In this document: one piece after another, positions 2,679 through 7,836 of the stretch
How positions within the stretch are numbered: the first letter of the stretch is position 1
Layout: the number at the start of each line of letters is the position of its first letter
NCBI GenBank assembly: GCA_913063505.1
Contig: CAJXYT010000007.1
Span: 1 to 47,218 of the forward strand
Direction of reading: 5' to 3'
DNA: 47,218 bases
DNA from: an uncultured Gammaproteobacteria bacterium
GTDB taxonomy: Bacteria; Pseudomonadota; Gammaproteobacteria; Steroidobacterales; Woeseiaceae
Program-made: the position numbers and the translations under genes
Notes under the pieces: model-generated
Database searches by the model: none
What the model was told of the DNA's origin: nothing
The model's input: the letters and a program-made list of their open reading frames with translations, nothing else

Positions 2679-3350
2679 CTACGCAAGAATCGTTGCCTTA
2701 TCCAGGTAGGGCAGGGAGGCTAGGTTGAGTTTCGAATTGTGCACTGACAATTCCCCGCCAACTTTGTTGATGGGGACGACAGCTAGCAGATCGGTTCCGG
2801 ATGCATTAAGGACATCACCAATATCCTGACCGTCATGCGACACCTTATTGCCTGGCGACACTGGCGTATCGCTTTCAAATTTCAGTGTTCTTCGTTTGGT
2901 TGCGCCTTTGTAGTGTGTTCTGGCGATAATTTCCTGACCGGTGTAACAGCCTTTATCGAAATCGATTGCATCGAGGAGATCGAGGTTAAGCATATGTGGT
3001 GTGTATTGCTCTGACTGCTCCAGGCCGACCGTCGGATGACCTTCGCTGATCAATGCGGCTAGGTCCACTGTTACGCCCTCGTCAATGATCTCGAATTCTA
3101 CTTTGGCTCGAAAACGAAAAACCATCAGACGCCGAACGATATTTTCAGCTAAATCAGAGGGTGCCGAGAGCCTAAAGGCTGACTCAGTCGATAGGACATT
3201 GCCTAGCCAGATCACTCTGCCCTTCGGGCTGCACCAGGCAGCCAAAATTTTGGATTCTGACTCCAGTCGCTTCAAGTCATTGGTCAGCTGACCCTGTAGA
3301 AACTCAAAAGCGTCCACACCGCTAACTAAAATTGTTGAAATTCTATTCAT
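2679..3350 (-). CDS. ygfZ: YgfZ/GcvT-like folate-binding protein (short form)
   Basis: YgfZ proteins are tetrahydrofolate-binding, GcvT-related factors that help make or repair certain Fe-S proteins (IBA57 in mitochondria). The family signature KGCYTGQE is present near residue 138, followed by RTHYKG. I start it at the ATG at 3350 (MNRISTILVSG), which has GAGG just upstream. The ATG at 3416 would overlap the divergent sdhAF4-like gene. From 3350 the protein is 223 residues, much shorter than E. coli YgfZ (326). Its position, divergent from the sdh operon whose SdhB carries three Fe-S clusters, fits a maturation role; that link is inference. Confidence 0.85.
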   Translation of the reverse strand: MNRISTILVSGVDAFEFLQGQLTNDLKRLESESKILAAWCSPKGRVIWLGNVLSTESAFRLSAPSDLAENIVRRLMVFRFRAKVEFEIIDEGVTVDLAALISEGHPTVGLEQSEQYTPHMLNLDLLDAIDFDKGCYTGQEIIARTHYKGATKRRTLKFESDTPVSPGNKVSHDGQDIGDVLNASGTDLLAVVPINKVGGELSVHNSKLNLASLPYLDKATILA

Positions 3351-3414
3351 TTGCCTCACCGTAGTTATTGTTACTGTTACTGCAGGGCTTGGCCGCCTCT
3401 GGCATACTCTTGCC

Positions 3415-3579
3415 ATGCACAGCGATGACCCAAAGATTGGTACTGCATCTGAAGATTCAACGACGGATGATAACCCGCCGGAGAGTCAGAAGCCGCCGAA
3501 AGAGATCGGTGGCCGTGGCGGATTGGATCCAACTCGCTATGGCGATTGGGAAAAGGCAGGACGTTGTGTTGATTTTTAA
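3415..3579 (+). CDS. SDHAF4-like succinate dehydrogenase assembly factor (DUF1674)
   Basis: A 54-residue protein with a disordered, acidic and proline-rich N-terminus. Its C-terminal block reads GGRGGLDPTRYGDWE then KAGRCVDF, the diagnostic DUF1674 / SDHAF4 (Sdh8) signature. In mitochondria SDHAF4 binds flavinylated SdhA, limits stray oxidation and aids assembly with SdhB. Bacterial members are best known from alphaproteobacteria. The gene lies 53 bases ahead of sdhC on the same strand, and so probably starts the sdh operon. There is no clear Shine-Dalgarno. Family assignment is firm; activity here is inferred from homology and position. Confidence 0.9.
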   Translation: MHSDDPKIGTASEDSTTDDNPPESQKPPKEIGGRGGLDPTRYGDWEKAGRCVDF

Positions 3580-3632
3580 GGATAATGCCATGGCTGAGAC
3601 TATGGCACGAATCCTCAACAAGAAGAGACTTC

Positions 3633-4010
3633 ATGAGCAATAACGGCAGGCCTCTGTCGCCGCACCTCTCGATTTATCGCTGGCCCATCACTATGACTAC
3701 GTCGATCCTCCACCGGGTAACGGGCATAGCGTTGAGCATCGGTTCCATTGTTCTGGTTGCCTGGCTTTTTGGTGTGGCGATGGGTGCAGAGTCATATGCG
3801 ATTTTTCTGAGCTACATGGACTCGATTCTCGGCCGAGTGTTACTGATCGGCTGGAGTTTCGCGTTCTTTTTTCATCTCTCAAACGGTGTCAGGCATCTAG
3901 TGTGGGATAGTGGGCGCGGATTTGAAAAGTCGACCGCGAATGCCTCCGCCTGGTTCGTATTGATACTCGCTGTGATTCTAACGGCACTGTTCTGGTGGAT
4001 ACGCTTATGA
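3633..4010 (+). CDS. sdhC: Succinate dehydrogenase cytochrome b556 subunit
   Basis: Membrane anchor subunit of complex II; with SdhD it holds haem b and the ubiquinone site. From ATG 3633 (MSNNGRPLSPHLSIYRW) the protein is 125 residues with three transmembrane segments. Family motifs are SILHRVTG near residues 24-31, whose serine and arginine line the quinone site, and HLSNGVRHLVWD near 82-93, which carries the axial haem histidine. I reject the longer frame from 3585 because its first 16 residues do not match the family. The last bases overlap the sdhD start as ATGA, so translation is probably coupled. Confidence 0.95.
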   Translation: MSNNGRPLSPHLSIYRWPITMTTSILHRVTGIALSIGSIVLVAWLFGVAMGAESYAIFLSYMDSILGRVLLIGWSFAFFFHLSNGVRHLVWDSGRGFEKSTANASAWFVLILAVILTALFWWIRL

Positions 4011-4387
4011 GTCTGCGCGCTCTACTGGGCCAAGTACTGGGTTGCGATAACGCCAAAGGTGCCACAGCCCATTTCTGGGCGCAGCGCCTGTCGGGTATTG
4101 GCACTCTGATCGCCGGCCTGTGGTTTATTTTCTCGATTCTGGGTATACCGGGATTCGGATATGCTGACGCACTGGCATTCATCACTACCCCATTGAATGG
4201 CGTCATGCTTTTGCTTCTGGTCGTCGTAATGGCGTACCACTCGAACCTGGGTGTACAGGTTGTAGTTGAAGACTACGTCCATGGCCATGGGTTGAAATTG
4301 ACCGCACTGATTCTTTCCCGCTTCGCACATATGTTTCTTGCGGTGGCGGCTGTTTACGCAATTATTAAGATTGGACTGGGTGTATGA
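4007..4387 (+). CDS. sdhD: Succinate dehydrogenase membrane anchor subunit D
   Basis: Second anchor of complex II, 126 residues from the ATG that overlaps the sdhC stop (ATGA). Three predicted membrane helices run roughly through residues 25-47, 57-82 and 98-122. [11 protein letters not shown] near the N-terminus and [16 protein letters not shown] in the middle are typical of SdhD; the latter supplies the haem/quinone-site residues. An ATG at 3995 would add four residues, but the coupled start is more usual. The end overlaps sdhA by another ATGA. Confidence 0.93.
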
Positions 4388-6168
4388 GCGACTACGAATT
4401 TATCGACCACACCTATGACGTAGTCGTCATCGGCGCTGGTGGCGCTGGCTTACGCGCCACCTTTGGGTTGGCCGAGGCGGGACTCAAGACAGCGTGCGTA
4501 ACGAAGGTCTTTCCAACTCGAAGTCACACTGTGGCCGCACAAGGCGGCATCAGCGCCGCTCTTGGTAACATGGGTGAGGATGATTGGCGCTGGCATATGT
4601 ACGACACCGTTAAGGGTTCAGACTGGCTCGGTGATCAGGACGCTATTGAGTACATGTGTAAAGAGGCCCCGGATGCGGTCATCGAACTGGAGCACTACGG
4701 TGTTCCATTTTCTCGTACCGAAGATGGCAAGATTTACCAGCGACCGTTTGGCGGCATGACGACACGCTACGGTGAAGGTACGGCGCAAAGAACCTGCGCG
4801 GCAGCCGATCGTACTGGCCACGCGATGCTGCACACCCTGTATCAGCAGTCGCTAAAGCATGATGCTGAGTTCTTTATCGAGTATTTCGCCGTCGATCTGA
4901 TCATGGAGGACGGTGCGTGTCGCGGTGTGGTTGCGATTGACCTCGCCACTGGGCGCTTGCATCGCTTCCGTTCGCATAAGGTTATTCTCGCCACAGGTGG
5001 ATACGGCCGGGCATTTTTCTCCTGTACATCAGCGCACACCTGTACTGGAGATGGCAGCGCGATGGTATTGCGGGCTGGTTTGCCTGTTCAGGATATGGAG
5101 TTTGTACAATTTCATCCAACTGGAATCTACGGCGCTGGTTGCCTGATTACCGAAGGCGTCCGCGGCGAGGGCGGTTACCTCACAAATTCCGATGGCGAAC
5201 GGTTCATGGAGCGCTATGCGCCGAATGCAAAGGATCTTGCATCACGTGATGTTGTCAGTCGGTCGATGACGATCGAGATCAATGAAGGACGTGGCGTTGG
5301 TAGCGGGGCTGATCACATTCATTTGCATCTTGAGCACCTCGGTCCCGAAGTTATCGAAGAGCGCTTGCCTGGGATCGCTGAGTCTGCACGTATTTTTGCC
5401 GATGTGGATGTTACGAAAGAGCCTATACCGGTATTGCCGACAGTTCATTACAACATGGGCGGTATACCGGCGAACCTTACTGGTCAGGTCGTGACCAAAG
5501 TGGGTGACGATCCGGAAGCTGTTGTTCCTGGTTTAATGGCAGTTGGAGAAGCGGCTTGCGTATCGGTTCACGGAGCTAATCGTCTTGGTTCAAATTCACT
5601 ACTTGATCTGGTTGTCTTCGGTCGCGCAGCGGCAAAATTCTGCATCGAAGAAATGACACCAGGTGCGTGTCATAAAGACCTGTCCGCTGATGCGGGTCAG
5701 AATAGTGTAGTCAGAATTGACAAGCTCCGAAATGCCGATGGCAGTCGTCCGACAGCTGCGATTCGCTTGGAAATGCAAAAAGTCATGCAGGGTCATGCAG
5801 CTGTTTTTCGAACCGGTGAGTCACTGGATAAAGGCCTCGAATTGTTGCGCGAGACGTTTGCGAGTTTTGCGGATGTTGGCGTAACGGATCGTTCGATGGT
5901 CTGGAATACAGATCTTGTCGAAACGATGGAGCTCGAAAATTTGTTGCTGAATGCATCAGCGACGATGGAATCTGCTGCGAACCGGCTGGAAAGTCGTGGA
6001 GCGCATGCGCGCGAGGACTTCCCGGATCGCGACGACGTCAACTGGATGAAGCACACGCTTTCCTGGGTCGATTCCAACGGCAATGTTTCGTTTGATTATC
6101 GCCCGGTGCATCAACAAACACTGACTGACGAAGTGGCGTATGTCGAACCAAAAGCTCGCGTTTACTAG
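4384..6168 (+). CDS. sdhA: Succinate dehydrogenase flavoprotein subunit
   Basis: Catalytic subunit that oxidises succinate to fumarate and passes electrons to SdhB; it sits on the cytoplasmic face of the inner membrane. The 594-residue protein opens with a Rossmann GAGGAG at 17-22. [10 protein letters not shown] follows, in which His48 is the expected site of covalent FAD attachment. FHPTG is near residue 244 and RGEGG near 260 in the substrate site; the C-terminal capping region is complete. Length matches E. coli SdhA (588). FAD attachment in this family needs an assembly factor, and two kinds are encoded beside it (3415-3579 and 6959-7201). Confidence 0.97.
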
Positions 6169-6179
6169 GATTATTGACA

Positions 6180-6962
6180 GTGACTGAATTCAGACTTCCA
6201 AAGAACTCGCGAATTTCGAAGGGAAAACATTTTCCGGCGGCTGATGGCGTTAGTAATATCCGAAAGTTTGCGGTGTACCGATACGATCCATCCAGTGACG
6301 ATAACCCGCGCGTCGATACTTACGATGTTGATATGGACAATTGTGGTCCGATGGTTCTCGATGCCCTAATCAAGATCAAGAACGAGATCGATCCGACACT
6401 GACGTTTCGACGGTCTTGTCGCGAAGGCATTTGCGGATCATGCGCGATGAATATTGACGGTGGGAATACTCTGGCATGCACTCGCGCAAATGACGAGCTG
6501 AAGGGTGACATAAAAATTTACCCATTGCCGCATTTGCCGGTCGTTAAAGACCTTGTGGCCGATTTGACTAATTTCTACGCGCAGTACGCGTCGGTCAAAC
6601 CCTGGTTGCAGTCACGAACGCCACCGCCACCGGATCAGGAGCGATTGCAGAGTAAAGAAAACCAGGAGCTCATCAATGAGCCGGCGGCTTGCATTCTGTG
6701 CGCCTGTTGTTCGACGAGTTGCCCGAGCTATTGGTGGAACAGTGATCGCTATCTCGGTCCGGCTGCATTGCTGGCTTCGTATCGCTGGCTGGTCGATAGT
6801 CGAGATGATGCAACCGGCGAACGACTCGACGAGCTTGAAGACCCCTTCAAGCTTTACCGTTGCCATACCATCATGAACTGTACTCAAACCTGCCCCAAAG
6901 GCCTGAATCCGGCGAAAGCGATCGCTGAGACAAAAAAGATGATGGTCGAGCGTAAACATTGA
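6180..6962 (+). CDS. sdhB: Succinate dehydrogenase iron-sulfur subunit
   Basis: Carries electrons from the flavin to ubiquinone through three Fe-S clusters. The [2Fe-2S] ligands are in [10 protein letters not shown] (from about residue 79) plus a later cysteine in TLAC. The [4Fe-4S] and [3Fe-4S] ligands are in [12 protein letters not shown] and CTQTCPKG. I prefer the GTG at 6180, because AGGA at 6167-6170 is 9 bases away; a TTG at 6174 would add two residues. About 260 residues, close to the usual 240 or so. It ends overlapping the start of sdhE. Confidence 0.96.
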
Positions 6963-7201
6963 GTGATCAATCGCGTCTACGCTGGCAGTGTCGGCGAGGC
7001 ATGCGTGAGCTCGATGAGTTATTGCTGCGCTACCTCGAAAACCGTTATCCAATCGCTGCAGACGATGAAAGGGCTGCGTTCCATGCAGTTCTGGAGCTTC
7101 CTGATCCGGAATTGAATGGCTATCTCTTACAACGACAAGCACCCGCTGAAGAGTCCAAAGCTCTTGTTATCAAACATATACTCAGCATACCGAACGTCTG
7201 A
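6959..7201 (+). CDS. sdhE: FAD assembly factor SdhE
   Basis: SdhE (SDHAF2/Sdh5 family, formerly YgfY) promotes covalent attachment of FAD to SdhA. The 80-residue, all-helical protein contains [11 protein letters not shown], with the family's RGxxE motif near residues 13-17. Translation probably starts at a TTG that overlaps the sdhB stop (TTGA), so the two are coupled. Its distance from the DUF1674 protein at the other end of the operon makes it the second SdhA maturation factor in the same transcription unit. Confidence 0.93.
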
Positions 7202-7299
7202 TCCTTGGCTGCGGGTCCTTAATACCCCCTGTGTTCTGTTGACTGGCAATATGTGCTGTAAAGCCTTACCTGGTTGCGACTTAAAACGGCCGCAGGTCA

Positions 7300-7325
7300 C
7301 ACCATGGCGGATCTACTCCATGGTG
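7300..7325. repeat. Perfect 8-bp inverted repeat ahead of rseC
   Basis: CACCATGG at 7300-7307 and CCATGGTG at 7318-7325 are exact reverse complements with a 10-base loop. It lies in the 179-base gap between sdhE and rseC. No T-run follows, so it is not a classical terminator; it could be a leader hairpin or a dyad protein site. Confidence 0.6.
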
Positions 7326-7380
7326 ATGCCCGTCGATGTAATGAATGGCACTGATTGCAGGTCATATGGAGGCACATTGT

Positions 7381-7836
7381 ATGAAAAACCTTGAAGGCCA
7401 GATCATATCGATGAGCGCCGATGGTTCGGAGCGAACCGTTGTTGTTGAGGTGATTTCGGAGGTCGCATGCGAGCGATGCGCATCCGGAAAGGGTTGTGGG
7501 GCGGGCTTACTCGGTGGCAAGATAAGCAATCGACGAGTTGCAGCAACGGTAGTTGCTGATCTTAATGTTAGCAACGGCGATCAAGTCAGCATTTCTCTAG
7601 AGCCCCAAAACCTGTTGCGTGCTGCAATCATCGTCTATGGCTACCCCATGTTTGCTGCGGTATTAGCGGCGATAGTCGCTCATTTCTACGATGCGAATGA
7701 TGCGATTAGCGCTCTTTTGGCTCTCGCTGGCTTGAGCGCGGGTGTGCTGATTGCGAAAGCGATATTAGGTCGAGCGAGATGTCTGCGCGAGTTTACACCC
7801 TTGGTCGTCGATCGGCTGACATCGGCGCGCGACTAG
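7381..7836 (+). CDS. rseC: RseC/MucC family membrane protein
   Basis: RseC is an inner-membrane protein that modulates sigma-E signalling and has been tied to SoxR reduction (RsxC/RseC). The 151-residue product has a cytoplasmic N-terminal domain with the family's cysteines (CERCASGKGCG, near residues 27-37). Two membrane segments follow (roughly 83-103 and 108-127) and then a short tail. ATG 7381 is preceded by GGAGG at a good distance; upstream in-frame codons lack one. Elsewhere this gene follows rpoE-rseA-rseB; here none of those is present, so its partner sigma factor is not local. Confidence 0.88.
   Translation: MKNLEGQIISMSADGSERTVVVEVISEVACERCASGKGCGAGLLGGKISNRRVAATVVADLNVSNGDQVSISLEPQNLLRAAIIVYGYPMFAAVLAAIVAHFYDANDAISALLALAGLSAGVLIAKAILGRARCLREFTPLVVDRLTSARD

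Follow-up and report, generated by a model that had tools for sequence, protein, structure and literature searches.

An sdh operon flanked by SDHAF4-like and SdhE genes in a Woeseiaceae genome, and the association of SDHAF4 homologs with mitochondrial-type SdhA

The window analysed here, a stretch of 47,218 nucleotides from an uncultured bacterium of the Woeseiaceae (one contig of a 75-contig assembly of 1.45 Mb), carries the succinate dehydrogenase genes sdhCDAB between the genes of two putative SdhA maturation factors: a 54-residue DUF1674/SDHAF4 protein, here called AF4, before sdhC, and SdhE, a member of the SDHAF2/Sdh5 family, after sdhB. The arrangement AF4-sdhCDAB-sdhE is the rule among the sampled AF4-bearing gammaproteobacteria, and the operon itself is ordinary for its clade. 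What the survey adds is a rule about the enzyme, namely that AF4 is confined, in our samples, to genomes with a mitochondrial-type SdhA, although it is not always present there. AF4 goes with the SdhA lineage and not with SdhE alone.

AF4 occurrence and the lineage of SdhA

The survey covered 274 evenly sampled genomes of the class and 60 genomes of near relatives, both including the genome of the window, as well as a phylum sample of 150 genomes. The latter overlaps in part with the class sample, to which it adds 38 of its 43 genomes with mitochondrial-type SdhA and 36 of its 40 AF4-positive ones. Neighbourhoods were fetched for 112 AF4 loci (64 from the class sample and 48 from the relatives) and for 60 AF4-negative SdhE loci, hand-picked among the 150 SdhE matches listed, at about one per family code and mostly on long contigs. 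Codes of the form Gnnn denote genomes, Lnnn fetched loci and fnnn family codes. Genome sets were transcribed by eye and tallied by script.

The SdhA of other genomes was typed by likeness to the window SdhA only, with the types split at a gap in bit score (841 to 730 in the class sample, 871 to 747 in the phylum sample). In the 274 class genomes, similarity to the window SdhA has a bimodal distribution: 86 genomes reach at least 63% identity, and the others, among the matches listed, do not exceed 59%. A contig-cut SdhA of 764 bits (G068) was counted as mitochondrial type. The weakest genomes were judged on their best E-value alone, and a contig-cut mitochondrial-type SdhA could fall among the others there, like that of G060.

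AF4 was found in 64 of the 86 class genomes with mitochondrial-type SdhA versus 1 of the 188 others, and in 40 of 43 versus 0 of 107 genomes of the phylum sample (Fisher p = 4e-42 and 3e-33, uncorrected for kinship). In the single genome among the 188, G060, sdhA is cut by a contig end; since the remaining 357 residues share 87% identity with the closest AF4-positive row and 65% with the closest AF4-negative row, its SdhA is also of the mitochondrial type. Overall, AF4 is present in 65 of the 274 class genomes and in 50 of the 60 near relatives. SdhE is present in 243 of the 274 class genomes and 132 of the 150 phylum genomes, including, as checked by eye, every AF4-positive one (65/65 and 40/40). 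The first-pass annotation had proposed mapping the co-occurrence of the two factors at sdh loci; their pairing proved to be the rule among the AF4-bearing gammaproteobacteria sampled, which are those 65 genomes of the class sample.

An SdhA tree was built from 93 rows, comprising 61 AF4-positive rows (60 of the 64 class loci and the window) and 32 of the 60 AF4-negative loci. Rows that did not contain both sdhA and sdhB (L062, L097, L100 and L118 on the AF4-positive side) and the 48 relatives were left out, and mitochondrial and E. coli SdhA rows are absent from this tree. On it AF4 changes 2 times, compared with 26.7 in shuffles. A repeat under a mixture model, with the distant rows L219 and L231 dropped, again gave 2 changes versus 25.2 in shuffles, and it placed the mitochondrial type (the 61 AF4-positive rows and L221) on one side of a branch with a Shimodaira-Hasegawa-like approximate likelihood ratio test (SH-aLRT) value of 100. 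From the 22 AF4-negative class genomes with mitochondrial-type SdhA, only G180 (L221) is in the tree. AF4 changes 2 times on the SdhB tree and 3 times on the SdhC tree; the SdhE (5 changes, 68 columns) and YgfZ (8 changes) trees are poorly resolved and were not relied on.

Piecemeal loss of AF4 from one common gammaproteobacterial operon was considered and rejected, given that the SdhA tree has two deep lineages and AF4 changes just twice on it. Within the mitochondrial type AF4 has been lost in places, for example in f132, and the absence of AF4 mostly goes with a different SdhA lineage and not with simple loss from the same enzyme. By its similarity to the window protein, E. coli SdhA likely belongs to the AF4-negative lineage. 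Furthermore, the families f99, f107 and f155 each hold both SdhA types, and by eye AF4 tracks the type in each; the AF4 match in f99 is weak, at 27.1 bits, and G154 (f155) was judged on its best E-value only. In G106 (f107, a single contig), the closest matches of SdhA, SdhB, SdhC and SdhE lie in AF4-positive loci and those of YgfZ in AF4-negative ones. By these similarities, G106 looks, in this one case, as if AF4-sdhCDAB-sdhE had been acquired as one unit. Another genome has a second SdhA of the mitochondrial type (G202:C16:41842-43617), 72% identical to the window SdhA.

The window locus, its two factors and their neighbours

The genes of the locus are as follows, in window coordinates.

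2679..3350, minus strand: ygfZ (CAF17/IBA57-like); TIGR03317 84.8 bits, cut-off 49; contains KGCYTGQE
3415..3579, plus strand: AF4, DUF1674/SDHAF4 homolog of 54 residues ending in GRCVDF; PF07896 55.7 bits
3633..4010, plus strand: sdhC, cytochrome b556 subunit; TIGR02970 131.8 bits, cut-off 52.3; ATG at 3633 picked by reading
4007..4387, plus strand: sdhD, membrane anchor; TIGR02968 73.1 bits, cut-off 41.8; ATG at 4007 picked by reading
4384..6168, plus strand: sdhA, flavoprotein of the mitochondrial type; TIGR01816 987 bits, cut-off 727
6180..6962, plus strand: sdhB, iron-sulfur subunit; PRK05950 367.8 bits, cut-off 228; GTG start likely, open reading frame (ORF) listed from 6174
6959..7201, plus strand: sdhE, SDHAF2/Sdh5 family factor for attachment of flavin adenine dinucleotide (FAD), 80 residues; PF03937 65.9 bits; TTG start overlapping the sdhB stop

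The first-pass annotation had placed a DUF1674/SDHAF4 gene before sdhC and an SdhE gene after sdhB, on one strand and with tight spacing. All of this was found in place, with both Pfam cut-offs passed and each of sdhC, sdhD, sdhA and sdhB above an NCBIfam cut-off. As read from the window sequence, sdhC/sdhD, sdhD/sdhA and sdhB/sdhE overlap by 4 bases, and AF4 is separated from the likely sdhC start by 53 bp.

The proposed search with a DUF1674 model matched the 54-residue protein: AF4 aligns to PF07896 up to the last profile position (E = 6.5e-15, 55.7 bits, cut-off 23.5), and the assembly has no other match to this family. It also matches the human SDHAF4 chain 8dyd_C (E = 1.6e-7), over the ordered C-terminal part, and the bacterial structure 2k5k (E = 3.6e-8). 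The latter is titled 'uncharacterized protein RhR2' in the PDB, so a solved structure of a DUF1674/SDHAF4 homolog exists without that name.

In the alignment with 8dyd_C, counted from the C-terminus, human E84, E92, D107 and F108 correspond to E30, D38, D53 and F54 of the window AF4, the E92 position thus being an Asp. Across 113 AF4 proteins (the 112 fetched loci and the window), the D-F C-terminus is present in 113/113. At the E92 position 72 have Glu, 40 Asp and 1 Asn; at the E84 position 107 have Glu, 4 have Glu with a one-residue insertion, and 2 have another residue (L124, L125). According to the accessible portions of PMC10784507, D107 and F108 of human SDHAF4 fill the SDHA dicarboxylate site and mutants there do not release SDHAF2, while E84N shows no detectable binding and E92N gives partial release. 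Two of the fetched loci are unusual. At L097:8971-9147 (G039), AF4 is solitary and ends in YDF; this genome measures 1.1 Mb and has its best sdhA match on a different contig. L125:9001-9162 (G218) encodes an atypical AF4 in which the loop ahead of the conserved core is shortened (REINDPTRFGDWVSSKGRCSDF), yet which still lies 5' of sdhC.

The window SdhE matches PF03937 (Sdh5) with 65.9 bits at a cut-off of 27, and matches the SdhE/YgfY chains 1x6i, 6c12 and 6b58 with E-values from 2e-13 to 3e-12. It carries RGMRE, fitting the RGxxE motif that is named in a reference title within the part of PMC10238741 that could be consulted. Against NF008130, the NCBIfam equivalog for the FAD assembly factor SdhE, it scores 50.7 bits, under the cut-off of 120; by these profile scores it is a family member outside this narrow equivalog. 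For the window SdhA, mitochondrial SDHA chains give 915 bits and E. coli SdhA (1nek) gives 692 bits.

Residue-level markers of AF4 dependence were sought and rejected. The SdhE tail extends a median of 9-10 residues past the profile end in all three groups, and no SdhE column was diagnostic at 70% in both groups. The SdhA columns nearest the R171 contact differ between the types and are probably not shared with human SDHA.

Gene calls in the fetched loci were made with profiles grown from the window genes; the SdhC and SdhD profiles cross-match, and the SdhA profile also matches a divergent neighbour. The gene next to AF4 is sdhC or sdhD in 62 of the 64 class loci and 47 of the 48 relatives, the two class loci without it being L097, where AF4 stands alone, and L118, at a contig end. 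Downstream genes were counted in loci with at least 5.2 kb of downstream sequence (55 class loci and 41 relatives). The class loci have sdhA and sdhB in 54/55 and sdhE directly after sdhB in 50/55, with sdhE not found beside sdhB in L071, L094, L099 and L108; the relatives show the full order together with a divergent ygfZ in 41/41. Because the gene order recurs in other genomes, chance is excluded, and a chance ORF for AF4 was rejected on this recurrence and the family match.

In a collection of named sequences, we inspected the best 80 of 575 confirmed AF4 matches. Among these 80, sdh genes adjoin AF4 in 65 loci and are absent in 15; the 15 are all titled as alphaproteobacteria or their subgroups, which the 65 are not, and the loci ranking highest for the window AF4 are metagenome-assembled genomes (MAGs) of Woeseiaceae. 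One public MAG titled Klebsiella pneumoniae (L307) carries AF4-sdhCDAB-sdhE-ygfZ, which is unexpected in an enterobacterium; perhaps the bin is mislabelled.

The gene order in the window is a lysS-like gene pointing towards ygfZ, then AF4, sdhC, sdhD, sdhA, sdhB, sdhE and rseC-like, glutaredoxin-like and lepA-like genes; the lysS and lepA labels were given by reading translations. The divergent ygfZ reported at the AF4 start is indeed present. It passes TIGR03317 and stays under the Pfam cut-offs for GCV_T (20.4 bits, cut-off 25.6) and CAF17_C, and its length falls short of the 327 positions of the E. coli-type model. Its ORF is open to 3416, and the likely start, an ATG at 3350 on the minus strand, was picked by reading and lies 64 bp from the AF4 start.

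The first-pass annotation had seen in this operon the set used by mitochondria (SDHAF2, SDHAF4 and IBA57). The observation holds, and the interpretation is supported in part: the families of the mitochondrial pair do flank sdhCDAB, but this is not special to the operon in the window, and ygfZ, presumably a relative of IBA57, is not specific to the pair. More specifically, ygfZ diverges beside AF4 in 31 and directly follows sdhE in 16 of the 55 class loci with sufficient downstream sequence. Among the 60 AF4-negative SdhE loci, sdhB-sdhE is found in 34, ygfZ diverges next to sdhC/sdhD in 25, and in 11 ygfZ directly adjoins sdhE while the fetched stretch contains no sdh gene (L175, L176, L185, L186, L189, L193, L202, L207, L209, L223 and L233). 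As a frequent neighbour of sdhE and sdh genes generally, ygfZ therefore says little about AF4.

The assembly is small, 1.45 Mb at 90% completeness, compared with mostly 2.2-5.1 Mb for sampled genomes of the same genus code. The sibling genome G283 is likewise small, at 1.5 Mb, and a streamlined lineage is possible.

A proposed two-step maturation of SdhA and its alternatives

We consider it probable, at roughly 0.8, that AF4-sdhC-D-A-B-sdhE is a six-gene cassette that encodes a mitochondrial-type complex II together with a two-step maturation of its SdhA. This reading builds on the observed gene identity, order, co-occurrence, confinement to one SdhA lineage and AF4 residues, and takes all its biochemical steps from the human proteins. 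SdhE would bind new SdhA together with FAD and a dicarboxylate and promote the covalent link to His48, by its motif the expected FAD-linking residue. AF4, disordered until bound, would then dock via E30 and D38 near SdhA R120, with its C-terminal D53-F54 entering the active site (H355, R400); these SdhA residue numbers are putative assignments from motifs and the human sequence. In doing so, AF4 would push SdhE off and shield the FAD until SdhB replaces it.

Several observations weigh against such a cassette. No AF4 match was found in 22 of the 86 class genomes and 3 of the 43 phylum genomes with mitochondrial-type SdhA (one shared), and a search of the 22 with a profile of gammaproteobacterial AF4 gave nothing convincing, with a best E-value of 0.1. 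In f132, G244 and G131 both have mitochondrial-type SdhA, one being AF4-positive and one AF4-negative. AF4 is therefore not strictly needed by this SdhA lineage, and residue contrasts between the SdhA types single out no AF4 contact. Furthermore, the window SdhE resembles that of E. coli and did not match human SDHAF2 at E 0.01, so there may be no counterpart here of the stable SDHA-SDHAF2 complex, on account of which humans need SDHAF4. Bacterial SdhE complexes are said, in the accessible part of PMC10238741, to dissociate readily; with an E. coli-like SdhE in the window, a tight complex that needs AF4 to break it is thus only hypothetical. A literature search by title found no experiment on a gammaproteobacterial AF4.

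The missing AF4 in those 22 of 86 genomes, like the ready dissociation described in that part of PMC10238741, would suit a different role, which we regard as rather unlikely: AF4 may mainly guard the exposed FAD on SdhA against radicals or off-pathway catalysis, as a stress accessory and not a displacement factor, with SdhE leaving unaided. The D-F end, which blocks the human active site, is invariant in 113/113 and would fit such a guard; however, release of human SDHAF2 needs those same C-terminal residues, as stated in the accessible portions of PMC10784507. AF4 was also never found without SdhE (65/65 and 40/40), which a pure guard does not require, although this co-occurrence is tempered by SdhE being common anyway (243/274 and 132/150).

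A shared ancestry of AF4 and SdhA type, by vertical inheritance and with no functional coupling, seems improbable as the whole explanation of their association. Related genomes do share both traits, the Fisher tests ignore kinship, and the association was judged without a species tree. It still holds, however, in other classes, where AF4 lies away from sdhA (0/35 within 2 kb); AF4 follows the SdhA type within f99, f107 and f155, and G106 resembles a whole-block transfer. We give very little credence to the 54-residue ORF being unexpressed or an sdh leader peptide. Such a reading could draw on 0 sigma-70-like promoter matches in window positions 3250-7450, where 3.5 are expected in shuffles, and on the lack of an obvious ribosome site, on reading, before the ATG at 3415, but it is opposed by the curated family match, the residue conservation with human SDHAF4 and the recurrence in the same slot.

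Beyond the six-gene cassette itself, we tentatively suggest, at somewhat less than even odds, that SDHAF4 is a lineage-specific partner of mitochondrial-type SdhA, that AF4-sdhCDAB-sdhE is transferable, and that the mitochondrial SDHAF2/SDHAF4 pair comes from a bacterial arrangement still intact in gammaproteobacteria. If SDHAF4 travels with mitochondrial-type SdhA in a transferable cassette, the SdhA lineage would determine whether it is needed. How SdhE and SDHAF4 share their tasks becomes testable in bacteria, in a minimal operon from which each factor is removable singly, and the 22 AF4-less genomes with mitochondrial-type SdhA, as natural exceptions, can reveal a replacement for AF4, if there is one.

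Comparison with known systems

Homologs of AF4 in gammaproteobacteria have already been mentioned in the accessible parts of PMC10784507 and PMC10238741. A literature search by title, with most subscription papers outside its reach, found none on the linkage of AF4 to the sdh operon or on its tie to an SdhA lineage, and the accessible part of a genome-neighbourhood study of succinate dehydrogenase (PMC12727194) names SdhE twice and 'assembly factor' and YgfZ not at all.

In human and yeast, SDHAF4 (Sdh8) and SDHAF2 (Sdh5) belong to the same two Pfam families as the window pair. Compared with human SDHAF4, the window AF4 keeps the C-terminus and the E84, E92, D107 and F108 positions, with E92 as Asp, and the window SdhA is nearer to mitochondrial SDHA than to E. 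coli SdhA. In contrast to the human and yeast system, the window pair, known here from sequence alone, is bacterial, is encoded in the sdh operon and includes an E. coli-like SdhE.

SdhE of E. coli and Serratia, which acts with SdhA or FrdA, has the SdhE family and the RGxxE motif in common with the window. The first-pass annotation had held that E. coli has SdhE and lacks DUF1674, and profile matches in the control genome agree. In likeness to the window SdhA, E. coli SdhA scores well below mitochondrial SDHA.

Alphaproteobacterial DUF1674 proteins (the Caulobacter control; 2k5k is of unstated origin) are of the same family as the window AF4, and the control, Caulobacter vibrioides, matches SdhE as well. 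In the phylum sample, all 35 AF4-bearing genomes of other classes have mitochondrial-type SdhA, and AF4 lies within 2 kb of sdhA in 0/35 of them versus 5/5 gammaproteobacteria. AF4 is thus kept beside the operon in gammaproteobacteria and elsewhere in alphaproteobacteria. Among the best 80 of the 575 named matches, for example, Woeseiaceae, Xanthomonas, Stenotrophomonas, Lysobacter, Luteimonas, Wenzhouxiangella, Marinicella and Cycloclasticus have AF4 followed by sdh genes, as in the window. In the named gammaproteobacteria, ygfZ is usually beside AF4-sdh, and some have a gap before sdhE or carry ygfZ downstream of sdhE.

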